NCBI RefSeq assembly: GCF_017355405.1
Contig: NZ_CP061177.1
Span: forward strand, 434,001-498,000
Length of the DNA stretch: 64,000 nt
Source of the DNA: Roseomonas haemaphysalidis
GTDB taxonomy: Bacteria > Pseudomonadota > Alphaproteobacteria > Acetobacterales > Acetobacteraceae
Reading direction: 5' to 3'
Position 1 is the first letter of the stretch. Each line of letters begins with the position of its first letter. Positions 11,087 through 34,398 of the stretch are shown here, piece after piece. The notes beneath the pieces were generated by a model that saw only the letters and a list, made by a program, of their open reading frames with translations, ran no database searches and was not told where the DNA came from. The position numbers were made by a program, and so were the translations under genes.

Positions 11087-11130
11087 AAGGCCGGGGGAAG
11101 GCGTTCCCCCGCCCCCCATCTTTATTTTGA
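11087..11130 (+). repeat. family A hairpin repeat, copy A2
   Basis: Stem CGGGGGAA/TTCCCCCG with loop GGCG, then CCCCCCATC and TTTATTTTGA. It directly follows the MFS gene and pairs in inverted orientation with A3, 58 bases away. Confidence 0.8.
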
Positions 11131-11188
11131 TCTGCTTCCGCGAGAAGGGCTGTAAGTCTGTCGCCCCGCTTCCGGCTCCGGCAACGAA

Positions 11189-11230
11189 CCAGAAAAGATG
11201 GGATTCGGGAAAATTGCTTCCCCCGACCTT
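11189..11230 (-). repeat. family A hairpin repeat, copy A3
   Basis: On the minus strand: stem TCGGGGGAA/TTTTCCCGA (two G-U pairs) with a GCAA loop, then ATCCCATCTTTTCTGG. It lies after the stop of the binding-protein gene ending at 11241 and is the inverted partner of A2. Confidence 0.75.
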
Positions 11231-11240
11231 CTTTGCCGCC

Positions 11241-12080
11241 TTAAGCGTTCGGATCGCCCGCGTTCGGGAAAAACAGCGACTGCCCGTCGATCTGATAGGC
11301 CGCGATGGCGTCCTGCCCGGCCTTGGACACCAGCCAGTCGATAAAGGCCTGCCCATCCGCCGTCTTCACATGCGGGTGCCGGGCCGGGTTCACCAGCATC
11401 ACGCCGTACTGGTTGAACAGGCGGGCATCGCCTTCGGTCAGCACCTGCAGGTCGCGGCGGTTGCGGAAGCTGAGCCAGGTGCCGCGGTCGCTGAGCAGAT
11501 AGGCCTCGGCGGCGGCGGCGGTGTTCAGCGCCGGGCCCATGCCCTGGCCGATCTCGCGGTACCAGCCCTGCCCCGTGGCGGCGGGGTCGATGCCGGCCAG
11601 CTTCCACAGCCGCAGCTCCGCCGCATGGGTGCCCGAGCGGTCGCCGCGAGAGACGAACGGCGCGTGCTTGGCCGCCACCGCCTGCAGCGCGGCGGTGATG
11701 TCGCGCCCCTTCGCGCCCGCCGGGTCCGCCGCCGGGCCCACCAGCACGAAGTCGTTGTACATGACGGGATAGCGGCGGGTGGCGAAGCCCTCGGCCAGGA
11801 AGTTCATCTCCGCCGCGCGGTCGTGCACGAAGACCACGTCGGCGTCGCCGCGCCGGGCGACATCCAGCGCCTGGCCGGTGCCCAGTGCCACCACGCGCAC
11901 GTTGATGCCGGTAACCTGGGTGAACAGCGGCAGGATATGGCCGAACAGGCCGGACTGCTCCGTGGAGGTGGTGGAGGCGACGGTGATGCTGCGCGGCGCC
12001 TGCGCCCGCGCGCCGGGCACGGCCCCCAGCAGCGCGAGGCTGCCGAGCGCGGCGAAAAGAAGACGGCGACCGAGGCGCAT
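11241..12080 (-). CDS. tungstate/molybdate-type ABC substrate-binding protein (TupA-like), orphan
   Basis: A 279-residue periplasmic protein with a signal peptide of about 26 residues (ending ARA). The ligand-pocket segment VASTTSTEQSGLF and the later FVSRGDRSGTHAAE are typical of TupA/PstS-like anion-binding proteins. TupA delivers tungstate to the TupBC transporter for molybdopterin-type enzymes. No permease or ATPase gene adjoins it, so partners must lie elsewhere. The ATG at 12080 has GGGAAG eight bases before it; an in-frame ATG at 12095 adds five residues. The next gene upstream, tsaB, is divergent. Confidence 0.82.
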   Translation of the reverse strand: MRLGRRLLFAALGSLALLGAVPGARAQAPRSITVASTTSTEQSGLFGHILPLFTQVTGINVRVVALGTGQALDVARRGDADVVFVHDRAAEMNFLAEGFATRRYPVMYNDFVLVGPAADPAGAKGRDITAALQAVAAKHAPFVSRGDRSGTHAAELRLWKLAGIDPAATGQGWYREIGQGMGPALNTAAAAEAYLLSDRGTWLSFRNRRDLQVLTEGDARLFNQYGVMLVNPARHPHVKTADGQAFIDWLVSKAGQDAIAAYQIDGQSLFFPNAGDPNA

Positions 12081-12294
12081 GAATAAGCTTCCCATGACTG
12101 GCGTGTTTCTTTCAACAAGCCGCAAGCCGGCCTCAAGGTCCAGGGGCGGCTTGATGTCGTTGCGCCACCATGGCCCCGGCGGCGCCAGAACGGCAGGCCG
12201 CGCCCGCAACAGCGCCAGGCAGGCCTGCCTTCCGGACTTTCTCCGAGCGAGATTGCGGATTTCGCCCCGGCCGATCCTGCTTTAAGGCCTGCGC

Positions 12295-12954
12295 ATGCGG
12301 ATTCTGGCAATGGATGGCGCCCTGGCGCGGGCTTCGGCGGCGGTATGGGCGGAAGGGCGCGTTATGGCGCAGGCCACGACCGATGGCGCGCGCGGCCAGC
12401 CCACGGCGTTGCCGCTGCTGGTGCAGCGGGTGCTGGCCGAGGCCGGGCTGGCCGCCACCGAGCTGGATGCCGTGGCGGCGGTGGTGGGCCCGGGTGGCTT
12501 CACCGGGCTGCGGGCGGCGCTGGCACTGGCGCAGGGCATCGCGCTGGCGGCAGGCCGGCCCGCGGTCGGCGTCACCACCGGGGAAGCCCTGGCGGCCGGC
12601 CTGCCGGCGGCGTGGCGCGCGGGGCGGGAAACCTGGTGCTGCATCGACACGCGGCGCGGCCGGCTGCTGCTGGAACGCTTCGCGCCCGGTTCGGCCGCGG
12701 CGCTGGGACCGCCCTTGTCGCTGGCGCCGGAGGAGTTGCCGGTTGTCGCAGCCCCGCCCCTGCTGGCGGGCGATGCCGCAGACATGGCGCTTGCGGCGCT
12801 GGCTTCGCGCGGCGTGGTGGCGGAAAACAGCGGCCATGCCTTGCCCCGGGCCGCCGATGCCGCCGCCGTGGCGGCGCTGCGGCTGGCCGGCCAGCTGCCA
12901 CCACTGGCCGCGCTGCCCCTTTACGTGGAGCCGCCGGCGGTGCGCGCGCCGTGA
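12295..12954 (+). CDS. tsaB: tRNA threonylcarbamoyladenosine synthesis protein TsaB
   Basis: A 219-residue ASKHA-fold protein. It shows the N-terminal ILAMDGALARASAAV strand pair and the VVGPGGFTGLR motif of TsaB/YeaZ. TsaB forms a complex with TsaD and TsaE that places the threonylcarbamoyl group on A37 of ANN-decoding tRNAs. It overlaps the next gene, rimI, by four bases (GTGA), a conserved pairing in alphaproteobacteria. Confidence 0.9.
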   Translation: MRILAMDGALARASAAVWAEGRVMAQATTDGARGQPTALPLLVQRVLAEAGLAATELDAVAAVVGPGGFTGLRAALALAQGIALAAGRPAVGVTTGEALAAGLPAAWRAGRETWCCIDTRRGRLLLERFAPGSAAALGPPLSLAPEELPVVAAPPLLAGDAADMALAALASRGVVAENSGHALPRAADAAAVAALRLAGQLPPLAALPLYVEPPAVRAP

Positions 12955-13385
12955 CACCGGCCTTGCTTGGCCAGGCCGACGCCGCGGCGCTGGCCGTGCT
13001 GCATGCCGGCGCCTTTCCGGCCGCCGAGGCCTGGGGGCCGGATGCCATCGCATTGATGCTGGGGCTGGACGGCGGCTTCGGGCTGGGGCTGGCCGGACAG
13101 GGCTTCGTGCTGGCGCGCGCGGTAGCCGGGGAGGCCGAGGTGCTGACCCTGGCCGTGGCACCGGCCGCGCGGCGGCGGGGCGTGGCCACGGCGCTGCTGC
13201 AGGCTGCGATGCGACAGGCAGCGGCACGGCAGGCGGAGGTGATGTTTCTGGAAGTCGCCGAAAGCAACGCCGCCGCGCAAGCGTTGTACATGGCGGCGGG
13301 CTTCGCCGAGGTCGGGCGCCGCCGCCATTACTATAGCGATGGCACCGATGCGCTGGTGCTCAGCCGTCGCCTCGGCGCAGCCTGA
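12951..13385 (+). CDS. rimI: ribosomal protein S18 alanine N-acetyltransferase RimI
   Basis: A 144-residue GNAT-fold protein. The acetyl-CoA-binding segment is APAARRRGVATALL; LEVAESNAAAQALYMAAGF and the end of HYYSDGTDALVLSR are typical of RimI. It acetylates the N-terminal alanine of ribosomal protein S18. The start is the GTG at 12951 overlapping the tsaB stop; the frame is open upstream only as a shadow of tsaB. Its 3' end overlaps the convergent TusA-like gene by 26 bases. Confidence 0.88.
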   Translation: MTPALLGQADAAALAVLHAGAFPAAEAWGPDAIALMLGLDGGFGLGLAGQGFVLARAVAGEAEVLTLAVAPAARRRGVATALLQAAMRQAAARQAEVMFLEVAESNAAAQALYMAAGFAEVGRRRHYYSDGTDALVLSRRLGAA

Positions 13386-13620
13386 GGCACAGCGCGCCGT
13401 CCGGCCGCTCCCGCTGCCCCAGCACCGCATGGCCTTGTTCCACAGCGGTGCGGGGGATGTTGCGGCGCGGTTCGTCGCCTTTCAACAGCACCTCCAGCAC
13501 CTGTCCGGGGGACAGCCGGTCCAGCGCCAGGCGGGTGCGCACAAAGGTCATCGGACAAGTCTCGGCGGTGATGTCGATGTAGCTGTCGGGACTGTCGTCC
13601 CACCACTGTTCTTGGTGCAT
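13360..13620 (-). CDS. TusA-family sulfurtransferase-like protein
   Basis: An 86-residue protein with the SirA/TusA fold signature AETCPMTFVRTRLAL; C22-P23 is the conserved CP pair, C22 being the sulfur-carrying residue in TusA. The sulfur trafficking role (tRNA thiolation, molybdopterin or other persulfide relay) is inferred from family only. Convergent with rimI and overlapping its last 26 bases. Confidence 0.82.
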   Translation of the reverse strand: MHQEQWWDDSPDSYIDITAETCPMTFVRTRLALDRLSPGQVLEVLLKGDEPRRNIPRTAVEQGHAVLGQRERPDGALCLRLRRGDG

Positions 13621-13760
13621 TCTGTAATGAATCCGGATTTATTCGCACCGCGCCAGAAAGGCGGTTGCGGGAAATGGATCAGGAAAGATATGCTGGCCGC
13701 AGACGGGGGCCGCAAGTCGCGAGCCGTCGTCGTTTAGAGAAATCATGAAAAGGCGCCTTT

Positions 13761-14204
13761 ATGGCCGAAGAACAGGCTGGGCAAGAACTGCTGGAGCTGA
13801 CGGCGCAGATCGTCGCCGCGCATGTGTCCAACAACGCGGTGTCGCTGCCCGAGGTGCCCTCGCTGATCGAGCAGGTGCACCGCACGCTGGCCGGGCTGGG
13901 CAACGCCGCCCCTGCCCCCGCCCCGGTGGCCGAGCGCCCGCAGCCCGCCGTGCCGGTCAAGAAGTCGGTGACGGACGAGTACCTGGTCTGCCTGGAAGAC
14001 GGCAAGAAGTTGAAGATGCTGAAGCGGCATCTGAAGACCGCCTACGACATGACGCCGGAACAGTATCGCGACCGCTGGGGCCTGCCGCCCGATTATCCGA
14101 TGGTGGCGCCCAACTACGCCAAGCACCGTTCGTCGCTGGCCAAGAAGATCGGCCTCGGCACCAAGCCGCGCGGCGGCCGCCAGAAGCGCCCCGCGGCGGC
14201 CTGA
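13761..14204 (+). CDS. mucR: MucR/Ros-family transcriptional regulator
   Basis: A 147-residue protein. The C-terminal half carries the MucR zinc-finger region: [18 protein letters not shown], then [15 protein letters not shown] and the basic DNA-binding end LAKKIGLG. MucR proteins are H-NS-like silencers that bind AT-rich DNA and control exopolysaccharide, motility and cell-cycle genes. The N-terminal part (10-50) forms the oligomerisation domain. A proline-rich linker (50-65) joins the two. Nearby hairpins at 14261 and 14314 separate it from fur. Confidence 0.92.
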
Positions 14205-14260
14205 CGGCCGGGGCGCCGCATCCGGCCCGCCGGGCGCGGCGCCTGCCACCGCCGGGGCCG

Positions 14261-14282
14261 CCACCAGCGCCGCCGCTGGTGG
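14261..14282 (+). terminator. hairpin after mucR
   Basis: A perfect 8-bp stem CCACCAGC/GCTGGTGG with a 6-nt loop, 56 bases after the mucR stop. No T-tract, so terminator activity is uncertain. Confidence 0.4.
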
Positions 14283-14303
14283 CGCGCCTTGCCTTGGCCG
14301 GGT

Positions 14304-14339
14304 TATGATGGCAAGGGCGGGTGCGTTGAGACCCGCCCT
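14304..14339 (+). promoter_or_regulatory. possible -10 box and leader hairpin before fur
   Basis: A TATGAT hexamer at 14304-14309 is followed by a perfect 9-bp inverted repeat AGGGCGGGT/ACCCGCCCT (14314-14322, 14331-14339, 8-nt loop). It is 66 bases before the fur start, so it may form a leader hairpin in the operon mRNA. No good -35 was found. Confidence 0.3.
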
Positions 14340-14404
14340 CGCCACCTGACACCGGCCACGCGGGGCCAGAGCCGGCCCCGGCGCAGGAGCTTCCGACGAC
14401 GCGC

Positions 14405-14974
14405 ATGGACACCCGCACCGCACCTCCCCGCCCCGCCGCGCCCGGTCCCGCCGCGTCCAGCCCCGGAGCCGCGCCCGACCCGATGCGGATCGAGCGGCTT
14501 TGCATCGAGCGCGGGCTGAAGATGACCGGCCAGCGCCGCACCATCGCGCGCGTGCTGTCCGAGGCGATCGACCACCCCGACGTCGAGGAACTGTACCGCC
14601 GGGCGCTGGCGCTCGACGCCCGCGTGTCCATTGCCACCGTGTACCGCACCGTGCGGCTGCTGGAGGAAAAGGGCATCCTGGAGCGGCATGACTTCGGCGG
14701 CGGCCGCGCCCGCTACGAGGCCACCGACCACGGCCACCACTACCACCTGATCGACATCGATTCCGGCAAGGTGATCGAATTCTCCGACGAACAGCACGAG
14801 GCGCTGGCCGCCGCCATCGCGGCGCGGCTCGGCTTCGCGCTGGTGGGCCACCGGCTGGAGCTGTTTGGCCGCCGCGCCGAGGATGCCGGTGCCGGCCCGG
14901 CCCGCGGCCGCCGCCGCAGCGTCGCCAAGCCCGGCCCCGGCCGGGCCCCCGACGAGGGCGGGAACGCCGCATGA
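14405..14974 (+). CDS. fur: Fur-family metal-responsive regulator
   Basis: A 189-residue Fur protein. The winged helix covers about 35-100 (KMTGQRRTIARVL, VSIATVYRTVRLLEEKG). The dimerisation domain has the metal-binding run DHGHHYHLIDIDSGKVIEF (H109-H114 region). It lacks the C-terminal CxxC zinc site, as do many alphaproteobacterial Fur/Mur proteins, so iron or manganese may be the signal. The first 25 residues are Pro/Ala-rich and the tail is basic; an in-frame ATG at 14483 would give a normal-length start. It overlaps olsB by four bases, so the regulator is cotranscribed with lipid synthesis genes. Confidence 0.9.
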   Translation: MDTRTAPPRPAAPGPAASSPGAAPDPMRIERLCIERGLKMTGQRRTIARVLSEAIDHPDVEELYRRALALDARVSIATVYRTVRLLEEKGILERHDFGGGRARYEATDHGHHYHLIDIDSGKVIEFSDEQHEALAAAIAARLGFALVGHRLELFGRRAEDAGAGPARGRRRSVAKPGPGRAPDEGGNAA

Positions 14975-15771
14975 TCGACCCCGAGGCCGGCTTCGGCGAG
15001 CTCCGGGCCGGCAATCTGGGGGTCCGCATCGCCATCTCGGCCGCCGAGGTCGATGCCGCCCAGGCACTGCGCTACCGCGTCTTCTACGACGAGATGGGCG
15101 CGCATCCCGATGCCGTCACCGCCGCCGCGGCACGCGACGCCGATAGCTTCGACCCCGTGGCCGACCACCTGCTGGTGCTGGACCACGACCTGGGCGAGGG
15201 TCCCGCCGCCGTGGTCGGCACCTACCGGCTGATCCGGCGCGAGGCGGCGGCGCGCGTCGGCGGCTTTTATTCCGCCAGCGAATACGACGTCAGCAAGCTC
15301 ACCGGCCGCCCCGGCCCGGTGCTGGAGCTGGGCCGCTCCTGCGTGGATGCCGCGTATCGCGGGCGGCCGTCCATGCAGCTGCTGTGGGCCGGCATCGCCG
15401 CCTATATCGCCAAGCACAACATCGAGGTGATGTTCGGCTGCGCCAGCCTGCCGGGCACGGACCTGGATACGCTGGCGGTGCCGCTGACCTACCTGCACCA
15501 CGCCCACCTGGCGCCGCCTGAGCTGCGCCCCGTGGCGGTGCGGGACCGCTTCGTGCGCATGGACCGGCTGGACCCGGCGCTGATCGACCACCGCGCCGCG
15601 CTGGCCGACCTGCCGCCGCTGGTGAAGGGCTATCTCCGCCTTGGTGGCTTCGTGGGTGATGGCGCGGTGATCGACCCGCAGTTCAACACCACCGACGTCT
15701 GCGTGGTGGTGATGACGGAACGGGTGACGGACAAGTACTTCCGGCATTTCGAACGGCAAAAGGCCGGCTGA
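14971..15771 (+). CDS. olsB: L-ornithine N(alpha)-acyltransferase OlsB
   Basis: A 266-residue GNAT-related acyltransferase. [12 protein letters not shown] near the N-terminus, VVGTYRLIR, and [16 protein letters not shown] are typical of the OlsB/hemolysin-like family. OlsB attaches a 3-hydroxyacyl chain from ACP to ornithine, giving lyso-ornithine lipid; the next gene encodes the matching O-acyltransferase. ATGA overlap with fur couples their translation. Ornithine lipids replace phospholipids under phosphate limitation in many alphaproteobacteria; a Fur link here is inference. Confidence 0.88.
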
Positions 15772-15833
15772 GCACCCGGCGGCGCCCCGGGCGCGCGATT
15801 GCCGCGCCGGGCCGCCTCCGGTATCGCTGCCCC

Positions 15834-16718
15834 ATGGCATCCCCTTCGGACGAGACCCGACGCCCCCTGCTGGTGGGCCCGCCCGACGATTCCCCCATCT
15901 CCGGCGGCAGCGCCCTGCGCGCCGCCGGGCGGCTGGCGCTGGTGACGCTCTGGACCCTCGGCTGCCTGCCGGTGCAGGCGGTGCTGGTGGCCTTGCCCGG
16001 GCGGGCCGACGTGCGCTTCGGCGGCCTGTACCACCGCGGCCTGTGCCGCATCCTGGGCCTGCGGCTGCGGGTGGTGGGGCAGCAGGCGGCGGGCGCCTCG
16101 GTGCTATACCTGTCCAACCACTCCTCCTGGCTCGACATCCCGGTGCTGGGCGGCACCCTGCGCGCGCCCTTCGTGTCCAAGGCCGAGGTGGGCACCTGGC
16201 CGGTCATCCGCCTGGTGGCCCGGCTGGGCCGCACCGTTTATGTGAGCCGCGCCCGCGGCCGCACCGGCGAGGAAGCCGCGGCGATGCGCGAGCGGCTGCA
16301 GGCCGGCGGCTCGCTGGTGCTGTTCCCCGAAGGCACCAGCGACGACGGCACCCGCGTGCTGCCGTTCCGCTCCTCCTTTCTGGCGGTGGCCGAGGCGGCG
16401 GCCGCCGTGCAGCCCGTCACGGTGGTGTACGACCGGCTGGGCCCGCTGCCCGCCACCCGCCGGGACCGCGCCATCTTCGCCTGGTATGGCGACATGGACA
16501 TCGGCAGCCACTTCTGGCGCCTGGCCCGGCGCACCGGCGGGCAGGCCACCGTGGTGCTGCACCCGCCGCTGGACCCGCGCGCCTTTGGCCACCGCAAGCA
16601 GCTGACGGCGGCGGTGGAGAAGGTGGTGGCGGACTGCGCCGCCACGTTGCGGCAAGGCCGGGCGGCGATGCCGCTGGCCGCGCAGGCGCCGCCGCCGGCC
16701 GCCACGAAGCCGGAATAG
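15834..16718 (+). CDS. olsA: lyso-ornithine lipid / 1-acylglycerol-3-phosphate O-acyltransferase (OlsA/PlsC)
   Basis: A 294-residue PlsC-domain protein with the catalytic HX4D box in NHSSWLD (95-101) and [10 protein letters not shown] hydrophobic N-terminal segment (30-55) anchors it to the membrane. Because it follows olsB on the same strand by 62 bases, it probably adds the second acyl chain to lyso-ornithine lipid; phosphatidic acid synthesis is the alternative or an extra role, since OlsA enzymes can do both. Confidence 0.85.
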
Positions 16719-16930
16719 CCGGGCGGTTCCGGCGCGCGGCGCCGGGCTGCCCTGACTTGGCGGCGCATGCCGGATTGCACGAAACGGTCACCACGCTTTG
16801 CCTTGACCCTGGCCCCCGGCATCCACAACTCTGTGGGGCATGGACCGGCTCGATTCGACCCTCATGGCTGGGCGGCGGTCTCCTGGGGCAGGCTTCGCTT
16901 GACCTTGGCCACCGTGCGCCGCACATCGCC

Positions 16931-16952
16931 CACCCGCCCTGCCGGGCGGGTG
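16931..16952 (+). terminator. hairpin in the olsA-miaB gap
   Basis: A perfect 9-bp stem CACCCGCCC/GGGCGGGTG with a 4-nt loop lies 33 bases before the miaB start. It could attenuate read-through or shape the miaB leader. The rest of the 266-bp gap shows no recognisable gene. Confidence 0.4.
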
Positions 16953-16984
16953 ACCCGCTTCGCCGCGCCAGGGCTTTTCAGCAC

Positions 16985-20916: not shown

Positions 20917-20961
20917 AAGGCTGGGGGAAGGAATTCCCCCAGACCCCCATCTTTTTTCTGA
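20917..20961 (+). repeat. family A hairpin repeat, copy A4
   Basis: The clearest copy. Stem CTGGGGGAA/TTCCCCCAG (20921-20929, 20934-20942) with a GGAA tetraloop, then ACCCCCATC and CTTTTTTCTGA. It follows the corC-like stop by two bases and pairs inverted with A5, 69 bases away. Confidence 0.85.
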
Positions 20962-21030: not shown

Positions 21031-21080
21031 GACGAAAACAAAAGAAGTGGGGGTCTGGGGGAGAATTCATTCTCCCCCGG
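21031..21080 (-). repeat. family A hairpin repeat, copy A5
   Basis: On the minus strand: stem GGGGGAGAA/TTCTCCCCC with loop TGAA, then CAGACCCCCACTTCTTTTG. The extra GA in one arm is matched by TC in the other. It overlaps the last codons and stop of the pseudouridine synthase gene. Confidence 0.85.
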
Positions 21081-21828
21081 TTCCACCCCCAGGCAGCACG
21101 GCACCCACCCGCCGGAACGCCGCCGCCATCGCCTCCGGCACCGCCGCCTCGGCCTCGACCGGCGGCGTCATCGGCAGTGACAGGGCGCGGGCCAGCAGAT
21201 GCAGCCCGCCCGGTGCGGCGGTGCCGTAGAAGGGGTCACCCAGGATGGGAAAGCCCAGCGCCGCGCAATGCACCCGCAGCTGGTGGGTGCGGCCGGTGCG
21301 GGGGCGCAGCTCCACCCAGCACAGCCCCCCGCCCCGTCCCAGCACCCGCCATTCGGTGAGCGCCGGCTGGCCGTCCGAATGGGGTTCCATGCGCCAGCCA
21401 GCGGCGGCGGTGCTGGTCTTGCGCAGCGGCAGGTCGATGCGCCCGCGCGCTTCCGCCGGCCCCGTGCCGCGAAGCACCGCCCAGTAAGTCTTGCGGGCGC
21501 GGTGCTGCGCGAAGATCGCGCCCAGCTCGGCCAGTGCCGGCTGGGTGCGGCCGAGGGCCAGGCAACCGGCGGTGTCGGTATCCAGGCGGTGGGCGGGCTG
21601 GGGCATGCGCTTCTTGCCGAAGGCGAGCAACGGCAGCCAGTCCTCCAGGCTCGCCCCGCCGCGTGGGCCGGCATGGACGGGCAGGCCGGCAGGCTTGTCC
21701 AGCACCAGCACGGCGTCGGTCTTCAGGATGATGCGGGCGGCGATCTCGGGCGGCGGCGCGGCCGCCAGCCGGGGCGGAGCGGGGCGCCGCGCGGCGGGCT
21801 GCGCCCGGCCGCGCGGCGGGGCCCTCAC
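21067..21828 (-). CDS. RluA-family pseudouridine synthase
   Basis: A 253-residue single-domain enzyme. The catalytic loop is HRLDTDTAGCLALG with the nucleophilic aspartate, and the later motif RTGRTHQLRVH is typical of RluA/RsuA-type synthases. There is no S4 domain. It isomerises uridines in rRNA or tRNA; the target is unknown. The GTG at 21828 overlaps the ilvE-like stop (GTGA). The last three codons and stop lie inside repeat A5, so the C-terminus GGE was probably supplied by the repeat. Confidence 0.85.
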   Translation of the reverse strand: MRAPPRGRAQPAARRPAPPRLAAAPPPEIAARIILKTDAVLVLDKPAGLPVHAGPRGGASLEDWLPLLAFGKKRMPQPAHRLDTDTAGCLALGRTQPALAELGAIFAQHRARKTYWAVLRGTGPAEARGRIDLPLRKTSTAAAGWRMEPHSDGQPALTEWRVLGRGGGLCWVELRPRTGRTHQLRVHCAALGFPILGDPFYGTAAPGGLHLLARALSLPMTPPVEAEAAVPEAMAAAFRRVGAVLPGGGTGGE

Positions 21829-22778: not shown

Positions 22779-22829
22779 GGCCAGGGGCGCTGCCCCTGGA
22801 CCCCGCCGGGGTGGCTGAGCCACCCCGGA
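22779..22829 (+). repeat. family B composite repeat, copy B2
   Basis: Two adjoining hairpins: CCAGGGGC/GCCCCTGG (loop GCT) and CCGGGGTGGC/GCCACCCCGG (loop TGA), joined by a GGACCCC segment. It is repeated in inverted orientation at 22981-23041. It lies upstream of the ilvE-like gene. Confidence 0.75.
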
Positions 22830-22861
22830 CCCCGGCATCTCCGGCTGTTGCGGGACCTGCG

Positions 22862-22887
22862 CGCCGGGGGTTTGGAAACTCCCGGCG
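22862..22887. repeat. 12-bp imperfect hairpin between the B2 and B3 repeats
   Basis: CGCCGGG and CCCGGCG arms with an inner GTTT/AAAC pair form one long stem with a single G-U step. It sits in the 354-bp gene-free gap between the ilvE-like start and the polA stop, which otherwise holds only repeats B2 and B3. Confidence 0.5.
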
Positions 22888-22980
22888 ACTGACACGCCGG
22901 TCCCTGCCGCTTTTCTATAAAAATTCCTCGCCTGCGGCCGGCACCGCTCCATGCCATGAGGGCCAAGGTCGCTTTCTGCC

Positions 22981-23041
22981 GGCGGGGTCTGGGGTGGCAC
23001 TGCCACCCCAGCGGGGGTCCAGGGGGCAGCGCCCCCTGGCC
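22981..23041 (-). repeat. family B composite repeat, copy B3
   Basis: On the minus strand: hairpin CCAGGGGGC/GCCCCCTGG (loop GCT), GGACCCCC, then CTGGGGTGGCA/TGCCACCCCAG. Arms differ from B2 at matched positions. It starts seven bases after the polA stop and may act as its terminator. Confidence 0.75.
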
Positions 23042-23048: not shown

Positions 23049-25916
<2,868 letters not shown>

Positions 25917-27251: not shown

Positions 27252-27323
27252 GCCGGAAGGCTCCTCTCAATCGGGGGCCCGGCCACGCGGATGCCGCGAG
27301 GGGAGGAGGCGCGCCGGGCCCAG

Positions 27324-27352
27324 TTGCGCGAAAGTCATCCGACATCGCGCAA
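27324..27352. promoter_or_regulatory. 8-bp inverted repeat upstream of terC-like gene
   Basis: TTGCGCGA/TCGCGCAA with a 13-bp spacer, 73 bases before the minus-strand start. It could be an operator or leader hairpin. A perfect palindrome ATACGCGTAT lies further up at 27393-27402. Both are weak evidence. Confidence 0.3.
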
Positions 27353-27535
27353 GCGGGCCACGCGGGCCCGCCGGCGCCAGAGGGGCCCGGATACGCGTAT
27401 AAGATGAACATTCGGCCATGTTTGGCAAGCGGCAAGGCACAGATTTTCTGCGAAGCCCGGGAGAATCCTGCCAGCCTTCCCGGCTCCGCCTTTTTCGTGG
27501 ACCGCTGCGCCCCGCTGCCGCTATGCCGCCACGGC

Positions 27536-28600
27536 ATGCCGCACCGCACCCCGTGTTCCAGGATGCTGTTGCTCGCCGGTCTGGCCCTGCTGGCGGGCTG
27601 CGCGCCGCAGGTGGTGGCAACCGGCCGCGCCGCCCTGGGCTTCGGGCTGGACCCGGCGGACGTGGCCACCCCCGTGCCCCGGGGCGACGCGCCGGACCAG
27701 GCGGCCCCCCTGGCGGAACCCTTCCGTGCGGAAGACGGTGCCCTGCTGCCGCACCGCGCCTGGCCGGCGCAGGGCGGGCCGCCGCGCGCCCTGCTGCTGG
27801 CGCTGCATGGCTTCAACGAGCATTCCGGCAACTTCCTGCTGGACAGCGTGGGGCGCTTCACTGCCGCCGGCATCGCCGTGCATGCCTATGACCAGCGCGG
27901 CTTCGGGCTGGCGCCGGCGCGGGGCTATTGGGCCGGCACCGACCGCATGGTGGCCGACGCACGCGTGGCGGTGCGGGCGCTGCGCGCCGCCCACCCGGGC
28001 GTGCCGCTGTTCCTGATGGGCGAAAGCATGGGCGCCGCGGTCGCCCTGCTGGCCGCGACAGGCCCGGACCCCGCGCCGGTGGACGGGCTGGTGCTGCTGG
28101 CGCCGGCCTTCTGGTCGCGCGCCGCCATCGGGCCGGTGGGCGTCGGGCTGTTCTGGCTGGTGGCGCATGCCGTGCCGGCGCTGGGCTTTCCGGCCAGCGC
28201 CGGCGGCATCGCCGCCAGCGACAACATCGATGCCCTGCGCCGCAACGGCCGCGATCCGCTGGTGATCAAGGCCGGGCGGGTGGATGCCGCCTGGGGCCTG
28301 CTGGACCTCATGGACCGTGCCACCGCCGCCCTGCCCGGCTGCTGCGCGGTGCCGGTGCTGATCCTGCAGGGCGCGCAGGATGGCGTGGTGCCGCCGCGCG
28401 TGACACGCGGCGCTTTGCGCGGCATGCCACCGGGGCCGCGCCTGGCGCGTTACCCCGAGGGCCAGCACCTGCTGCTCCGCGACAACGTGCGGCAACAGGT
28501 GGCCGACGACATCCTGGCGTGGCTGGACGACCCGCGCGCGGCGCTGCCTTCGGGCGCCGACGCCACCGGGGCCGTCTGGCTGGCGCAACCAGACCCGTGA
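27536..28600 (+). CDS. alpha/beta hydrolase lipoprotein (monoacylglycerol-lipase-like)
   Basis: A 354-residue protein. A lipoprotein signal ends LLAGC. The Ser-hydrolase fold shows LLLALHGFNEHSGNF (oxyanion strand), YDQRGFG, nucleophile elbow GESMGAA, and late acid/base residues in LQGAQDGVVPP and EGQHLLL. This is the serine lysophospholipase/monoglyceride lipase group. It likely hydrolyses lipid esters at the envelope. The ATG at 27536 gives the signal peptide; an ATG at 27563 inside it is possible. The next hydrolase follows 14 bases after. Confidence 0.82.
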   Translation: MPHRTPCSRMLLLAGLALLAGCAPQVVATGRAALGFGLDPADVATPVPRGDAPDQAAPLAEPFRAEDGALLPHRAWPAQGGPPRALLLALHGFNEHSGNFLLDSVGRFTAAGIAVHAYDQRGFGLAPARGYWAGTDRMVADARVAVRALRAAHPGVPLFLMGESMGAAVALLAATGPDPAPVDGLVLLAPAFWSRAAIGPVGVGLFWLVAHAVPALGFPASAGGIAASDNIDALRRNGRDPLVIKAGRVDAAWGLLDLMDRATAALPGCCAVPVLILQGAQDGVVPPRVTRGALRGMPPGPRLARYPEGQHLLLRDNVRQQVADDILAWLDDPRAALPSGADATGAVWLAQPDP

Positions 28601-28614
28601 CGGAGGCGGCCTGC

Positions 28615-29505
28615 ATGCTGATACCCCCCTGGACCCGGCGCGGCGCCCTGGCCAGCCTTTTGGCGGCGCCGCTGCTGGCCGCCGGCGCCGCGCGGGCCGA
28701 GCCCGCCTGGCCGCGCGCCGCCTATGCCCCGCGCAACGAGGAGGAATGGCAGGTCACGCTGCGCGACGGCCGCCGCTACCGCGTGCTGCTGTCCTGGCCG
28801 CTGGGCGAGGTGCCGGAAGAAGGCTGGCCCTCGATCTTCGCGCTGGACGGCAACGCCATGTTCCCGCTGCTGAACGGCGCCTGCCGCCTGTTGCCGGACG
28901 GGCAGCAGGGCGTGGTGGTGGCGATCGACTTTCCGCTGGACGAGGCGGTGCCGGACCGCCGCGACTATGAATACACCCTGGCCGGCGGCGAAACCGCCGC
29001 CCGCCACGGCGGTGCCGACGCCCTGCTGGACGGCATCACCGGCGAGATCCGCCCGGCGGTCGAGGCCGCGCTGCGGCTGGACCCGGGGCGGCGCGCGCTG
29101 TTCGGCCATTCCTATGGCGGGCTGTTCACGCTGCATGCCCTGTTCGCGCGCGACAGCGGCTTTTCCACCTTTCTGGCCGCCAGCCCTTCCATCTGGTGGG
29201 GCAACGGCGTGCTGCTGCGCGAGGCCGACGCCTTTGCCGCCCGCGTTCCGGCGGCGGAGGCGCCGCGGCCGCGGCTGCTGATGACCTATGGCTCGCTGGA
29301 AGGCCGCCAGCCGCGCCCGCCCGGGCCGGAGCCCGAGGCGCCGCGCCGCGTCATGGGCGACAACGTGCGGGCCATGGGCGACCGGCTGGCGGCGCTGGAC
29401 AACCGCCTGGCGGCGCTGGAGGTGCAGGGCTTTCAGGGTGAGAACCACGGCAGCGTGCGCGCCGCCGCCGCCGGGCGGGCGGTGCCCTTCGCCTTCGCGC
29501 CATAG
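28615..29505 (+). CDS. secreted esterase of the Fes/IroE (esterase D-like) family
   Basis: A 296-residue protein. The N-terminus RRGALASLLAAPLLAAGAARA is a twin-arginine-type signal. The elbow GHSYGGLFTLHAL, the following ASPSIWWGN, and the GENHGS near the end (catalytic His) match the IroE/Fes putative esterase family, which cleaves trilactone siderophores or other esters. GGAGG lies eight bases before the ATG. It is the second hydrolase of a two-gene run; the substrate is unknown. Confidence 0.82.
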   Translation: MLIPPWTRRGALASLLAAPLLAAGAARAEPAWPRAAYAPRNEEEWQVTLRDGRRYRVLLSWPLGEVPEEGWPSIFALDGNAMFPLLNGACRLLPDGQQGVVVAIDFPLDEAVPDRRDYEYTLAGGETAARHGGADALLDGITGEIRPAVEAALRLDPGRRALFGHSYGGLFTLHALFARDSGFSTFLAASPSIWWGNGVLLREADAFAARVPAAEAPRPRLLMTYGSLEGRQPRPPGPEPEAPRRVMGDNVRAMGDRLAALDNRLAALEVQGFQGENHGSVRAAAAGRAVPFAFAP

Positions 29506-29609
29506 GCCGCCCCGCGGCGGGGCAGCCCTGCGCCGCAGCCGGTTGAGCGTCGGGGCCTGACGGTCTATCCCGGCGCCGAACGCGCCCTGGCCCGGAAGGT
29601 AATGCCGCC

Positions 29610-31187
29610 ATGACCGATTCCATCAAGATCCGCCGCGCCCTGATGTCGGTGCACGACAAATCCGGGCTGGTGGACTTCGCCCGCTTTCTGGCCGGCACGG
29701 GGGCCGAGATCCTGTCCACCGGCGGCTCGGCCAAGCTGCTGCGGGACGCCGGCATCCCCGTCACCGAGGTGTCCGACCACACCGGCTTCCCCGAGATCCT
29801 GGACGGCCGGGTGAAGACCCTGGTGCCGCAGATCCACGGCGGGCTGCTCGGCCGCCGCGACGACCCGAAGCACGTAGCGCAGATGGCCGAGCACAACATC
29901 GCGCCGATCGACCTGCTGGTGTCCAACCTCTACCCCTTCGAGGCCACGGTCGCGAAGCGCGCCTCCTACGAGGACACGGTGGAGGAGATCGACATCGGTG
30001 GCCCGGCGCTCACCCGCGCCGCCGCCAAGAACCACGCCGATGTCGCGGTGGTGACCGATGCCGCGCAGCTCGCCGAATTGCGGGCCGAGATCGAGAGCAC
30101 GGGGGGCACCAGCCTCGCCACCCGCAAGCGCCTGGCCGCCGCCGCCTTTGCGCGCACCGCGGCCTATGACGCCGCCATCTCCGCCTGGTTCGCGCAAAGC
30201 CTGGAGCAGGAGTTCCCGCCGCGCCTCAGCATGGCGGGCGTGCTGCGGCAAACGCTGCGCTACGGCGAGAACCCGCACCAGCGCGCCGCCTTCTACGCCG
30301 ACGGCACGCACCGCCCGGGCATCGCCACCGCCACGCAGGTGCAGGGCAAGGAACTGTCCTTCAACAACCTGAACGACACGGACGCGGCCTTCGAATGCGT
30401 GGCCGAGTTCGACCAGCCCGCCATCGTCATCGTCAAGCACGCCAACCCCTGCGGCGTCGCCAGCGGCGCCAGCATGGCCGAGGCCTGGGACCTGGCGCTG
30501 CGCTGCGACCCGGTGTCCGCCTTCGGCGGCATCGTCGCCGCCAACCGCACGCTGGACGCGGCGGCGGCCGAGCGCATCTCGGCCATCTTCACCGAGGTGG
30601 TGGTGGCCCCGGATGCGGACGAGGCAGCGCGCGCCATCTTCGCCCGCAAAAAGAACCTGCGCCTGTTGCTGACCGGCGGCCTGCCCGACCCGGCCTCGCC
30701 CGGCCAGATCATCCGCAGCGTGTCCGGCGGCTTCCTGGCGCAATCGCGCGACGCCGGCCGCGTGGCCGAGGCCGACCTCAAGGTGGTCACCAAGCGCGCG
30801 CCCACGCCGCAAGAGATGGCCGACCTGCTGTTCGCCTTCCGCGTGTGCAAGCACGTCAAGTCCAACGCCATCGTCTACGTCAAGGGCGGCGCCACGGTGG
30901 GCATCGGCGCCGGGCAGATGAGCCGGGTGGACAGCGCCCGCATCGCCGCCTGGAAGTCCGCCGAGGCCGCCAAGGCCGCCGGGCTCGGCGCCCCCCTGGC
31001 GCATGGCTCAGTGGTGGCGTCCGACGCCTTCTTCCCCTTCGCGGACGGCCTGCAGGCGGCGGCGGCGGCCGGCGCCACGGCCGTCATCCAGCCCGGCGGC
31101 TCGATGCGCGACAACGAGGTGATCGCGGCGGCGGACGAGGCCGGGCTGGCGATGGTGCTGACCGGGATGCGGCATTTCCGGCACTGA
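29610..31187 (+). CDS. purH: bifunctional AICAR formyltransferase / IMP cyclohydrolase
   Basis: A 525-residue PurH of normal length. The N-terminal MGS-like IMP cyclohydrolase domain begins [17 protein letters not shown]. The formyltransferase domain has [13 protein letters not shown] and [10 protein letters not shown]. It carries out the last two steps of de novo IMP synthesis using 10-formyltetrahydrofolate. It stands alone between the esterase gene and the A6/A7 repeat pair. Confidence 0.97.
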
Positions 31188-31197
31188 ACGTCAGAAA

Positions 31198-31242
31198 AAG
31201 GCTGGGGGAATGAATTCCCCCGGACCCCCTTCTTCTTTCTGA
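31198..31242 (+). repeat. family A hairpin repeat, copy A6
   Basis: Stem GGGGGAA/TTCCCCC with loop TGAA, then GGACCCCC, TTCTTCTTTCTGA. It starts ten bases after the purH stop and pairs inverted with A7, 148 bases away. Confidence 0.85.
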
Positions 31243-31318
31243 TTCACGGGCGTTCAGCCATCCGGTCCAGGCGCGGCACTTTATGATGTGAAAGGCCGCG
31301 TGAGCTGAACCCGCAGTC

Positions 31319-31341
31319 GCCGGAGGTCCATGACCTCCGGC
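31319..31341. repeat. 10-bp hairpin between the A6 and A7 repeats
   Basis: GCCGGAGGTC/GACCTCCGGC with a CAT loop, perfect. It lies in the middle of the spacer between A6 and A7. The 294-bp purH-rmuC gap holds no gene. Confidence 0.55.
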
Positions 31342-31390
31342 GCATCCCGTCGTGGCAAAGGCGCCACCACTCCACGGTCATTCCGGAAAA

Positions 31391-31440
31391 CAGAACAAAA
31401 AGAAGATGGGGGTCCGGGGGAATTCTTTCCCCCGGCCTTG
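31391..31440 (-). repeat. family A hairpin repeat, copy A7
   Basis: On the minus strand: stem CCGGGGGAA/TTCCCCCGG with loop AGAA, then ACCCCCATCTTCTTTTTGT. It lies upstream of plus-strand rmuC, so it is not at a minus-strand gene end. Confidence 0.85.
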
Positions 31441-31481
31441 CTTGCCGCCATAGGTCACAAAGAGAACGAAGAGGGACCGCG

Positions 31482-32693
31482 ATGACCACCGAATCGATGC
31501 TGCTGGCGGGTGCGGTGGTGCTGTTGCTTTTCGTGGTCGCCGTGCTCGCTTTGCGTCGCCCGTCATCCTCCGACGCCGGCGAGGCCTTTGCCCTGCTCGC
31601 TGGCAAGCTGGAATCGCTGGCTGCCACGCAGGAGCGGCTGGCGGACGGCACGCTGGACCGGCTGGAGCGGCAGGACCGTGCCCTGGCCGACCGGCTGGAC
31701 CGCAGCGCCCGGCGGCTGGACGAGGCGCTGGCCGCGCAGGACCGCCGCATGGCCGCCGAACGTCTGGCCGCCGCCGAGCGGCTGGCGGCGCAGGAAAAGG
31801 CGCTGGTGGAGGCGCTGGCACGGCAGAACGAGAAGCTGTCCCGCAGCCTGGCAGAATCCTCGCAGCGGCAACAGGACACGGCGGGGCAGATCCATGAGCG
31901 GCTGGCGGTGATCGACGCCGCGCGGCAGAACATGGAGGCGCTGGGCGGGCAGGTGGGCAACCTGGCCGCCATCCTGGGCAACAAGCAGTCGCGCGGCGCC
32001 TTTGGCGAGATGCAGCTGCGGCAGTTGATCGAGGACCGGCTGCCGCCGGAGGGCTTCGCCTGGCAGCACGTGCTGTCCAACGGCACGCGCTGCGACTGCC
32101 TGATCCGCCTGCCTTATCCGCCCGGCCCGGTGGTGGTGGACAGCAAGTTCCCGCTGGAGGCGTGGCAGGGGCTGCGCGAGGCGGGGGAGGACGTGGCCGC
32201 CCGCAAGGTGGCCGCCGCGCAGTTCGGCGGTGACATGCGCAAGCACGTGGACGACATCGCGAAGAAGTATCTGATCGCCGGCGAGACGGCCGAGGCCGCG
32301 ATCATGTTCGTGCCGTCCGAGGCGATCTTCGCGGAATTGCACACCGGCTTCGGGGCGGTGGTGGACGAGGCGCAGCGTCGGCGCGTCTACATCGCCTCCC
32401 CCACCACGCTTTGGGCGATGCTGTCCGCCATGCGTTCGCTGATGCAGGACGTGCGGATGCGTGCCCAGGCAGGGCGCATCCAGGAGGAGGTGGGCCGGCT
32501 GGTGGAGGACGTGACACGGCTGAACCAGCGCGTCGGCGGGCTGAAGCGGCATTTCGACCAGGCGCAGGACGACATCCGGCAGATCGACATCAGCACGGAC
32601 AAGATCGTCCGCCGCGGCAGCCGGATCGAGCAGGTGGAGCTGGAGGACCAGCCGGCCCTGCCCGCCTCGTCCGCGCCGGGCCTGACGGGGTGA
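31482..32693 (+). CDS. rmuC: DNA recombination protein RmuC
   Basis: A 403-residue protein. An N-terminal membrane anchor (ESMLLAGAVVLLLFVVAVLAL) is followed by a long coiled coil (about 40-165) and the RmuC nuclease-like domain with RGAFGEMQLRQLIEDRL, VVDSKFPLEAW and the FVPSEAIFAEL segment. RmuC limits recombination between short inverted repeats, which is notable beside inverted repeat pairs. It is normal in length. Confidence 0.93.
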   Translation: MTTESMLLAGAVVLLLFVVAVLALRRPSSSDAGEAFALLAGKLESLAATQERLADGTLDRLERQDRALADRLDRSARRLDEALAAQDRRMAAERLAAAERLAAQEKALVEALARQNEKLSRSLAESSQRQQDTAGQIHERLAVIDAARQNMEALGGQVGNLAAILGNKQSRGAFGEMQLRQLIEDRLPPEGFAWQHVLSNGTRCDCLIRLPYPPGPVVVDSKFPLEAWQGLREAGEDVAARKVAAAQFGGDMRKHVDDIAKKYLIAGETAEAAIMFVPSEAIFAELHTGFGAVVDEAQRRRVYIASPTTLWAMLSAMRSLMQDVRMRAQAGRIQEEVGRLVEDVTRLNQRVGGLKRHFDQAQDDIRQIDISTDKIVRRGSRIEQVELEDQPALPASSAPGLTG

Positions 32694-32740
32694 CGAGCCG
32701 CCCGCATCCCTCGCCGCCGCGCGGCGTTGACCCGGCATCC

Positions 32741-32761
32741 GTCCCGCTCAGACTGCGGGAC
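32741..32761 (+). promoter_or_regulatory. hairpin just before ohr
   Basis: A perfect 7-bp inverted repeat GTCCCGC/GCGGGAC with a 7-nt loop, 20 bases before the ohr start, with TTGACC upstream at 32727. It may be an operator (OhrR-like repressors are typical for ohr) or the end of rmuC transcription. Confidence 0.35.
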
Positions 32762-32781
32762 GCAAGCAGGAGAACACGCAG

Positions 32782-33210
32782 ATGACCGTTGACGTGAAGT
32801 ACACGACGACCGCGACCGCGACGGGTGGCCGCGACGGCCGCGCCACCACCAAGGACGGGGCGCTGGACGTGAAGCTGGGCGTGCCCAAGGAGATGGGCGG
32901 CAACGGCCAGGGCAACAATCCGGAGCAGCTGTTCGCGGCCGGCTACTCGGCCTGCTTTCTGGGTGCCATCAAGGCCGTGGCGGCCAGCGACAAGACCGGC
33001 CCCAAGGTGCCGCAGGACGCGACGGTGACGGCGACGGTGGGCATTGGCCCGCGCTCGGAAGGCGGCTTCGGCATCACCGCGGCGCTGGACGTGGCGCTGC
33101 CCGGGCTGGACCGCGCGCAGGCCCAGGCGCTGGTCGACAAGGCCCACCAGGTGTGCCCGTATTCCAACGCCACCCGCAACAACGTCGACGTGCAGATCAC
33201 CCTCGTCTGA
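32782..33210 (+). CDS. ohr: organic hydroperoxide resistance protein (Ohr)
   Basis: A 142-residue OsmC-fold peroxidase with the two redox cysteines in FAAGYSACFLGAI and HQVCPYSNATRNNVDV. Ohr reduces organic and fatty-acid hydroperoxides using dihydrolipoyl proteins. RBS AGGAG precedes the ATG. No ohrR gene adjoins it. It ends 14 bases before a converging gene. Confidence 0.94.
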   Translation: MTVDVKYTTTATATGGRDGRATTKDGALDVKLGVPKEMGGNGQGNNPEQLFAAGYSACFLGAIKAVAASDKTGPKVPQDATVTATVGIGPRSEGGFGITAALDVALPGLDRAQAQALVDKAHQVCPYSNATRNNVDVQITLV

Positions 33211-33224
33211 CGCAGCGGCGCCGC

Positions 33225-34184
33225 TCAATCCAGCTGGATGTCGAGCGGCCCCGCCACTTTTTCCCACCGCTGCAGGTCGGCCCGCAGCATGGCCCCGAAG
33301 GCCGCGCCGTCAGCACCATTGGGCGTCACGCCCAGGGTGCCGAAGCGCGAGGTCAGCAGGTCGCTCCGCAGCGCGGCGGCGAAGGCGGCCCGCAGCCGGT
33401 CCACGACCGGCGCGGGCGTGCGCGCCGGGGCGGACAGCCCGGTCCAGATGCTGGCCTCGAAGCCCGGGACGCCGGACTCCGCCAGCGTCGGCACATCCGG
33501 CGTTGCCGGAAACCGCTGGGGCGAGGTGACGGCCAGCACCTTGAACTGCCCGCCCGAGGCCGCCAGCACCGAGGGCACGGACACCAGCATCAGCTTCACC
33601 CGCCCCGCCTGCAGGTCGTTGAAGGCCGCCGCGGCGCCACGGTAGGGCACATGCTCCAGCTTCAGCCCTTCCCGCGCCTTCAGCTCCTCCATGATCAGGT
33701 GCGTGTTGGTGCCGATGCCGGTGGAGGCATAGGGCAGCGGCGCGGGGGTGGTGCGCGCCAGCGCCAGCAGCGCCTGCGCGCTGTCCACCGCGAGGTCCGG
33801 TGCCGCCAGCAGCGCCACGGGGCTGTCGGTCAGGTAGATGACAGGCGTGAAGTCGGCGATCGGGTCGTAGCTCAGCTTGCGGCCGATCGCCTTGGCGATG
33901 GTCAGCTGCCCGGCGGTGGCCAGCAGCAGCGTGGTGCCGTCCGGTGCCGCGCGCGCCACCGTCTCGGCCCCCAGCACGCCACCGGCGCCGGCGCGGTTTT
34001 CCACCACCACCTGCTGCCCGAGCTCCGCCGCCGCGGCCTGCGCCAGCAGCCGCCCCTGCACGTCCTGCGAGCCGCCGGGCGCGAAGGGCACGATCAGCCG
34101 GAGCGGCCGGTCGGGCGACCAGCCCTGGGCCCGGGCGGACAGCGGCGCGAGGGCGGCGAGGGCGAGAAGGTGGCGGCGGTTCAT
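33225..34184 (-). CDS. Bug/TctC-type tripartite tricarboxylate transporter substrate-binding protein
   Basis: A 319-residue periplasmic protein. A twin-arginine-like signal (MNRRHLLALAALAPLSARA) precedes the Bug-fold domain: RLIVPFAPGGSQDVQGR, VVENRAGAGGVLG, YPTxT-like YASTGIGTNTHL and VPYRGAAAAFNDL. Such proteins bind carboxylates such as citrate or aromatic acids. TctA and TctB membrane subunits are not in the window, as is common for the large orphan Bug families. The start at 34184 gives the signal. Repeats A8 and A9 lie upstream. Confidence 0.9.
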   Translation of the reverse strand: MNRRHLLALAALAPLSARAQGWSPDRPLRLIVPFAPGGSQDVQGRLLAQAAAAELGQQVVVENRAGAGGVLGAETVARAAPDGTTLLLATAGQLTIAKAIGRKLSYDPIADFTPVIYLTDSPVALLAAPDLAVDSAQALLALARTTPAPLPYASTGIGTNTHLIMEELKAREGLKLEHVPYRGAAAAFNDLQAGRVKLMLVSVPSVLAASGGQFKVLAVTSPQRFPATPDVPTLAESGVPGFEASIWTGLSAPARTPAPVVDRLRAAFAAALRSDLLTSRFGTLGVTPNGADGAAFGAMLRADLQRWEKVAGPLDIQLD

Positions 34185-34240
34185 GGGGCGGGCCGATCGG
34201 ATGTTGCCTGCGCAGCGCATCATGGATCGGGTGGAAGAAA

Positions 34241-34286
34241 AAGGCCGGGGGGAAGGAAATCCCCCCGGACCCCCATCTTTTTCTGG
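34241..34286 (+). repeat. family A hairpin repeat, copy A8
   Basis: Stem CCGGGGGGA/TCCCCCCGG around AGGAAA, then ACCCCCATC and TTTTTCTGG. The extra G-C pair in the stem is matched on both arms. It lies upstream of the minus-strand TctC-type gene. Confidence 0.8.
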
Positions 34287-34351
34287 TCTGCCCTGCGGCT
34301 GCGGCTGATGCGTCACGAGGCTTCACGTCGCAGCAGCCGCAACCGGAAAGC

Positions 34352-34398
34352 TGACAAAAGAAAGATGGGAGCTCGGGGGAATGCCTTCCCCCGACCTT
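34352..34398 (-). repeat. family A hairpin repeat, copy A9
   Basis: On the minus strand: stem TCGGGGGAA/TTCCCCCGA with loop GGCA, then GCTCCCATCTTTCTTTTGTC. It follows the stop of the AhpD-like gene and is the inverted partner of A8. The spacer has its own TGCGGCTG/CAGCCGCA repeat. Confidence 0.8.

Follow-up and report, generated by a model that had tools for sequence, protein, structure and literature searches.

The window analyzed here is a stretch of 64,000 nucleotides from Roseomonas haemaphysalidis (positions 434001-498000 of contig 1; complete genome 4.90 Mb, hereafter abbreviated as G000) and carries nine copies of a dispersed hairpin repeat, called family A, which are mostly arranged as two inverted arms facing inward. 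Our analysis indicates that the C/T tail following each hairpin mirrors the stem, in parallel register with its purine strand, and that stem and tail together appear to follow the base rule of an intrastrand triplex, namely a hairpin plus a third strand. Copy number, inward pairing, position behind genes, compensatory changes in the stem, the mirrored tail and the presence or absence of the repeat in relatives are all read from sequence. From these data we give an even chance to the proposal that a mobile mosaic element carries the repeats and that these form a structural barrier working in both directions at gene ends; it is a more tentative suggestion that selection maintains a three-stranded fold, with coordinated changes in the tail and both strands of the stem, and that this fold is employed at the ends of genes in more than 100 places per genome. 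The mirror relation of the tail was absent from the initial annotation of the window, as were a central hairpin module found in some copies and a second family of repeats (family B, table 1).

The mirror relation can be recognized in individual variants. In family A of G000, the stem GGGGGAGAA occurs with the tail CCCCCACTT or CCCCCTCTT in four of five copies, while the stem GGGGAAGAA occurs with the tail CCCCATCTT. A third set of arms (L085 3439, L099 3355, L264 3761 and L269 3826) combines the stem GAGAGGGG with the tail CTCTCCCC and the stem GAAAGGGG with the tail CTTTCCCC; in the first hairpins of family B, CCAGGGGG is followed by CCCCC, CCAGGGGGG by CCCCCC, CCAGAAGGGG by CTTCCCC and CCAAGGGGG by TCCCCC. 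These tails complement the purine strand in the same direction, not in the reversed one; ordinary pairing of the tail or duplication of a stem strand would give the opposite direction. Along the arms of family A in G000, the length of the G-run in the stem tracks that of the C-run in the tail (rho 0.62 for the 143 arms that could be parsed, out of 225), with run lengths of 5/5 in 73 and of 4/4 in 26 of the 118 arms having perfect stem runs.

The relation was then evaluated statistically with hairpins having a perfect purine 5' strand, taken from the fetched loci minus the distant purH loci; the strand was chosen from pyrimidine content alone and the register was set at the first pyrimidine run. 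The set comprised 371 hairpins, 363 with asymmetric stems, in 36 classes with one representative each. The parallel order matched at 178 of 271 positions versus 148.6 (sd 6.9) with permuted tails, none of 5000 permutations being as high, and the antiparallel match of the same 36 classes was lower than nearly all of its own permutations. When the best offset was taken for 28 classes, the parallel match reached 0.798 versus 0.692 (0 of 2000 as high) and the antiparallel match gave no signal (997 of 2000). Antiparallel pairing of tail and stem was consequently rejected as a candidate, having no signal in these two tests and a weak one in the mixed-strand and family B tests described below. In the distant purH control the two orders were even, with 6 versus 6 among 19 hairpins from 14 Acetobacteraceae loci and 6 versus 5 among 23 hairpins from 66 other loci.

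The base found in the tail depends on the stem base it faces: opposite A there are 407 T, 143 A, 187 C and 15 G, and opposite G there are 1440 C, 265 T, 33 G and 21 A. The third block agrees with Hoogsteen or reverse-Hoogsteen recognition of the purine strand as a statistical sequence rule. The opposite strand, which carries G, or A or T, would correspond to the purine-motif rule A(T)AT and GGC, as quoted by Holder et al. (2015; PMC4666352); the purine motif also permits the A that stands in place of T in the family A consensus, facing the first A of the stem. Because RNA is described in the same article as unable to form purine-motif triplexes, a fold at the DNA level would be favored, such as one on single-stranded DNA; in RNA, the pyrimidine motif would in principle be open to the gene strand. 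The support for a triplex, the formation of which we infer, rests on this covariation of stem and tail.

Family A is a high-copy repeat. The exact motif GGGGGAANNNNTTCCCCC occurs 106 times in the genome (0 for a reversed-pattern control) and, if up to 2 mismatches are allowed, the window has 8 occurrences versus 0.42 expected. With R1, a covariance model built from six of the nine window copies, at least 150 arms were found in the genome, and among the matches listed all 41 two-arm clusters faced inward (+ then -). Twenty evenly spaced stretches of 20 kb gave 42 R1 matches, which by our own count include 16 inward pairs; just one match of this sample, of 20 bits, fell between 2.095 and 3.41 Mb. 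A permissive re-search of 85 fetched stretches, in which weak partners were counted, yielded 239 non-overlapping arms in 127 clusters: 110 inward pairs, one +-- cluster and 16 singles, with no ++, -- or -+ pair among them. The spacers of the G000 pairs measure 30-156 bp (median 66). The expectation in the initial annotation that a model-based genome search would uncover many further copies with an excess of pairing was thus borne out, the surplus of inward pairs being absolute. All 22 pairs within 600 bp in G131, G120 and G123 are likewise inward (70 of 71 matches used, one overlapping shadow being excluded). In G121 and G123, 19 of 20 sampled sites, picked among the highest scoring and hence non-random, hold a single arm near consensus, and across 17 genomes of the genus the copy number ranges from 0 to at least 150.

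Arms of the same pair resemble each other no more than they resemble other arms (27 of the 110 pairs were comparable position by position, and flanks were taken from all 110), and at position 42 they are even less alike than non-partners; a selected long hairpin between the arms was rejected on this basis. Homology between the spacers of different copies is found in 178 of 5995 comparisons versus 5-14 in five mononucleotide-shuffled controls, and in 99 when every second spacer was reversed, a control in which roughly half of the comparisons stay unaffected. Along contig 1, just 4 of the 125 clusters assigned to it were found between approximately 2.0 and 3.25 Mb, a third of the contig; GC skew placed neither origin nor terminus. 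For one element-bearing stretch, the best plasmid match is from Pseudoroseomonas cervicalis (80.6% identity over 68%), and PurH has its best matches among named genomes in Acetobacteraceae, both in keeping with a host of the Roseomonas group.

The stem itself bears signs of being maintained. Of the 212 arms scoring above 30 bits, the 111 with a length of exactly 45 nt were used to count compensation. At pair 5:26, 50 of these arms have C-G and another 50 have T-A (92% paired versus 71% after shuffling); at pair 6:25, the counts are 68 for C-G and 27 for T-A (88% paired versus 72%). Matched changes in the arms, reported earlier for the window, hence hold above shuffled pairing, but the length then proposed, 7 bp, does not: since these two pairs vary with compensation, the stem has 9 bp. 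Two outer G-C pairs beyond a bulged A have a mean probability of about 0.4. The 45-nt consensus of the arms also includes non-structural bases.

Pairs are placed in close relation to the ends of genes. Using a purpose-made gene caller, 110 of 111 pairs could be assigned to a context: 43 convergent, 57 codirectional and 10 divergent, versus 20, 62 and 47, respectively, for the gaps of 100 bp or more that the stretch sample offers (p = 3e-14). Stop-side arms overlap the stop codon or lie within 16 nt of it in 134 of 143 cases, and 93 of the 110 pairs have at least one arm this near a stop. In codirectional pairs, the stop-side arm lies at a median of 6 nt from the stop and the other arm at 39 nt from the next start. 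In G121, 8 of 10 sampled arms are single and occupy the gap between convergent stops, no more than 7 nt from the opposite stop. The view that the pairs are more than simple gene-end terminators agrees with their structure and with their presence also between codirectional genes.

Features of intrinsic terminators are displaced in these arms. The T-tract starts 6-9 nt past the stem, after ACCCCCATC, instead of directly after the stem as read from the gene, and for this reason the paired-terminator reading is weak. Between 20850 and 34500 of the window, 7 terminator-like matches were obtained versus 5.8 expected; arms A5 and A7 account for four of these, each reading outward. None was obtained in 11000-11300. 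An outward A-tract on start-side arms, considered as a hidden terminator, made no difference.

Comparison with relatives indicates that the repeats are patchy. At one codirectional site (C1 1115685) the element is absent in all five relatives in which both flanks can be aligned, the gap measuring 13-114 bp in them versus 180-194 in G000. The upstream gene of G000 here terminates at a TGA within the hairpin loop; in G130, the two genes seemingly share an ATGA overlap. Inspection by eye found a pair in 1 of 10 relatives (G120) at a second site, in 0 of 3 at a third and in 0 of 4 at a fourth, where three relatives hold other gene-length sequence in the gap; L090b (gaps of 729-810, unread), L090c, L130d, L065b and L064 gave no readable orthologous gap and were left out. 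Of 40 sites sampled in four species, 9 had a flank matching G000 within 400 bp of one of the G000 arms, not counting L269 and L271, which matched the element itself. Once present, the repeats seem to persist: among eight G123 sites queried in the close species G122, seven were found and all seven were occupied (the eighth had no place match among the matches listed, and two more sites lay outside the query), and at one orthologous site of these two species a stem pair has changed from C-G to T-A. On the strength of the patchy sites, the seven occupied sites and this compensated change, elements come and go between species and then stay with their stems kept.

The gene end of purH illustrates this variety in 13 relatives. 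A short-spacer pair is present in G107, G120, G124 and G131. In G126 and G133 the left arm lies behind purH and its inward partner before rmuC, with 1178 and 1026 bp between them, and in G127 the left arm stands alone; in these three genomes the left arm is succeeded by a hairpin of conventional type with a T-run. The remaining six lack family A arms in the stretch read, and two of them, G122 and G123, carry family B-type hairpins. A whole gene can thus lie between the arms, and it is a different one in G126 and G133: the stretches concerned (L215 291-1556 and L216 443-1556) contain an EamA-type transporter gene in one case and an MntP-type pump gene in the other.

With respect to mobility, the repeats combine traits of several known elements. 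Inverted hairpin doublets, which define REPINs, make up 110 of the 127 clusters; the inward arms are equivalent to the terminal inverted repeats of miniature inverted-repeat transposable elements (MITEs), and empty sites in relatives, also expected for MITEs, were found in 5 of 5 at one site. Target duplications at the ends of the 110 pairs are not clear, with 1 observed versus 4.3 expected for k = 2, 2 versus 0.24 for k = 3 and 0 for k = 4-9. The RAYT-type transposase suggested by the initial annotation did not materialize: a search for the Y1 family (Y1_Tnp, PF01797), to which the transposase survey was confined, found no gene in G000, a lone short fragment in one of 16 genus genomes and none in six further checks (G121, G028, G115 and G011 new; G120 and G131 repeated). 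Mobilization by RAYT was therefore rejected, no complete Y1 gene having been found in the genomes searched. Of the two affinities proposed earlier, REPINs or paired terminators, the REPIN-like layout stands, without RAYT, and the paired terminator is weakened by the displaced T-tract. Family A looks like a mobile mosaic element of the kind of bacterial interspersed mosaic elements (BIMEs) and REPINs.

The mosaic character is evident from a central core hairpin. A hairpin with flanks of CTGAACCCTCAGTCGCC or similar sequence is common to nine long pairs of family A and also found in G107 and, in degenerate form, in G120. In its 11-bp stem, four pairs are changed on both sides and 98% of the positions are paired (nine G000 copies plus G107). 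A model of this module (R2) gave 50 matches in the genome among the best 150 candidates scored, at 37 distinct places by our own count. Many of the places outside family A belong to the family B composite, as judged by eye for 20 of 21 loci listed; the twenty-first, L432, carries family A arms. Each of the two inverted arms of family B consists of two hairpin-plus-ACCCC units, and at least eight further stretches of the genome resemble the composite of the window, which stands 7 nt from the stop of gene 23049-25916. Hairpin units are thus joined with a core common to families A and B, as in BIME-like mosaics. At four G123 loci (L244, L249, L250 and L252) a single arm is followed directly by a different GC-rich hairpin starting with CAGGGCCGG or CAGGGCCGGG. 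In two pairs at L068 (6050-6263 and 4327-4551), the stem of one arm has apparently been swapped for CGCAAACGTATACGTTTGCG, a tail like CCCCTTCTTTTTCTG being retained.

Within the window, R1 recovered all nine copies at the positions previously claimed (table 1), at scores from 71.9 down to 25.1 bits, six copies being members of the model; the next match, at 21 bits, is the opposite-strand shadow of A5. The four inward pairs have R1 spacers of 57, 76, 152 and 66 bp, near the 58-148 bp reported before, and the genes named around them (RmuC, TctC and a CMD, or AhpD-like, protein) were correctly identified. Arm A1 begins 9 nt past the stop of gene 9866-11077, and the called stop of a neighboring gene falls within arm A4, the stem of which is extended (GGGGGAGAA/TTCTCCCCC) and matched by its tail CCCCCACTT (L064 2622). 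The partner of A9 lies beyond the window edge (L062 2396-2441, + strand) across a spacer of 59 bp.

Table 1. Units of the repeat families located in the window (positions counted from its first nucleotide).
Feature	Position	Strand	Evidence
Arm A9, family A; right arm, left partner outside the window	42..86	-	R1 59.5 bits
Arm A1; left arm of pair 1, convergent genes	11087..11130	+	R1 62.2 bits
Arm A2; right arm of pair 1, stem maintained via G-U pairs	11188..11230	-	R1 32.3 bits
Arm A3; left arm of pair 2, convergent genes	20917..20961	+	R1 71.4 bits
Arm A4; right arm of pair 2	21038..21082	-	R1 25.1 bits
Family B composite; two inverted arms, each of two hairpin-plus-tail units	22779..23041	.	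read from sequence
Core hairpin module within family B	22856..22914	-	R2 27.7 bits
Arm A5; left arm of pair 3, purH/rmuC	31198..31242	+	R1 67.7 bits
Core hairpin module between A5 and A6	31291..31348	+	R2 78.1 bits (model member); covariation
Arm A6; right arm of pair 3	31395..31439	-	R1 71.9 bits
Arm A7; left, start-side arm of pair 4	34241..34287	+	R1 48.8 bits
Arm A8; right, stop-side arm of pair 4	34354..34398	-	R1 64.7 bits

Two other features of the window are distinct from these repeats. The 495 bp at 32763-33257, containing an OsmC-like gene, are 99% identical to C1:957890-958383 of G000 and are a recent duplication. The only Rfam match in the window exceeding its gathering score is a terC RNA (RF03067) at 27330-27398 (- strand), away from the repeats; five element-bearing stretches gave three sub-threshold matches.

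The explanation to which we assign even chances can be formulated as follows. A non-autonomous mosaic repeat found across the genus would have as its unit an arm of about 45-55 nt, composed of a purine-rich strand, a 4-nt loop, the complement and a pyrimidine tail mirroring the stem. Two arms would face inward around a short variable spacer and, in some copies, around the conserved central hairpin. New copies would once have been inserted as whole units beside stop codons by some mobilizing activity, the existence of which is presumed. Each arm would fold as a hairpin with its tail lying in the major groove as a third strand, the opposite strand presenting the purine-motif class I arrangement, and an inward pair behind stops would halt or trim transcripts from both sides, insulating the neighboring genes. 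The mobile history is the better supported half of this explanation; a function at gene ends is suggested by position and by stems kept in place.

Several results weigh against it. A cruder early test, in which the readings of both strands were mixed, placed not only the parallel order (0.657 vs 0.625) but also the antiparallel one (0.612 vs 0.597) above all shuffles, and 45 hairpins of family B gave a longest antiparallel complement of stem and tail of 5.31 versus 4.99 in shuffles, with 2 of 500 as high. A version of the tail test containing a register error, by which the first C was swallowed, gave 142 of 5000 and was superseded by the register-fixed test; the permutations moreover overstate independence because stem classes share ancestry. 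On the side of function, start-side arms are kept as well as stop-side ones (55.8 vs 51.0 bits, p = 0.37, n = 57 codirectional pairs), the ten pairs in divergent gaps have no gene ending there, the T-tract does not directly follow the stem as in an intrinsic terminator, and related E. coli motifs are described as having no promoter or terminator activity (PMC4666352).

The mirrored tail might instead be a by-product of descent from few ancestors, G- and C-runs having changed together while a triplex never formed. Most classes do fall in three families, run-length changes dominate, run lengths alone yield some antiparallel signal in family B and the distant purH loci have no signal, the 14 Acetobacteraceae loci included; yet stem-internal changes are matched in parallel order in all three families (A, B and C), and duplication or slippage would yield direct rather than mirror copies, which leaves this alternative somewhat doubtful. 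The arms could also be purely selfish miniature mobile elements, with hairpins and tails serving a transposase and with stop-side sites representing the least harmful insertions. This would account for the empty sites in relatives, the wide range of copy number in the genus, the homology between spacers and the near-empty third of contig 1. We nevertheless consider it about equally doubtful in view of the concentration of stop-side arms within 16 nt of stops and the full occupancy of the findable sites in a close species, one with a compensatory change; neither a clear target duplication nor, in the Y1 family searched, a candidate transposase was found.

Pairs of ordinary intrinsic terminators, sharing their sequence by convergence, would explain the position behind stops and the various hairpins seen by eye at the purH gene ends of relatives. 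The 45-nt consensus extending to non-structural bases, the displaced T-tract, the equal conservation of start-side arms and the presence or absence of whole units make this improbable. Least probable is a REPIN population moved by a RAYT transposase: inverted hairpin doublets in high copy number match the REPIN definition given in PMC3116915, whereas the Y1 searches returned one fragment in all and nearly all of the best-scoring sites in G121 and G123 are single.

If the barrier and its three-stranded fold are real, triple covariation would provide the first evolutionary evidence known to us for an intrastrand triplex working in bacterial cells, and the repeats would be modular, exchanging arms of different families as well as a shared core hairpin and being able to enclose a whole gene between arms. 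Bacterial intrastrand triplex motifs have been catalogued already; the question addressed here is whether cells form or use such folds. Hundreds of natural variants with co-changing stem and tail allow a direct test of the triplex, and related species with pairs, single arms, other families or nothing at the same gene end offer a natural experiment. Among the literature titles surveyed, none was found on repeats of this genus.

Of known elements, MITEs are short, have inverted ends and vary in presence or absence between relatives. Family A shares these traits but differs in that its target duplications are not clear and a matching transposon was not found. Palindromic repeats of alphaproteobacteria, RIME among them, are intergenic and have two palindromes each, a layout that resembles family A by description. 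REPINs are defined as inverted hairpin doublets in high copy number (PMC3116915) and, together with REP and BIME elements, are likewise extragenic, present in many copies and mosaic with extra modules (PMC3116915, PMC12306157, PMC3733652). According to these sources, some REPs of E. coli are found no farther than 15 nt from stop codons, and those near stops can stall ribosomes (PMC12306157), which by analogy is another possible effect of arms so near stops. In contrast to REPINs, family A has no RAYT found with it, spacers of 30-156 bp, near-consensus single arms in some species and the mirrored tail.

The closest known kind, by the sequence rule, would be the intrastrand triplex motifs exemplified by TMECO (BoxC, PIT), a class II motif reported from more than 260 genomes (Holder et al. 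2015; PMC4666352). As described there, TMECO, with 23 copies in E. coli MG1655 that include five close inverted pairs, favors no particular distance to genes and is associated with genomic instability; the main text of that article contains neither 'covari' nor 'compensat'. Family A resembles TMECO (PMC4666352) in being a G/C-rich, three-block motif on a single strand, intergenic and multicopy, in forming inverted pairs, and in its patchy distribution between relatives with no linked transposase found. The two differ in block order, which is pyrimidine, purine and third strand in TMECO, whereas the purine-rich strand of family A reads third strand, purine and pyrimidine and would thus belong to class I, and in placement, since family A in G000 is found mostly as inward pairs right behind stops.

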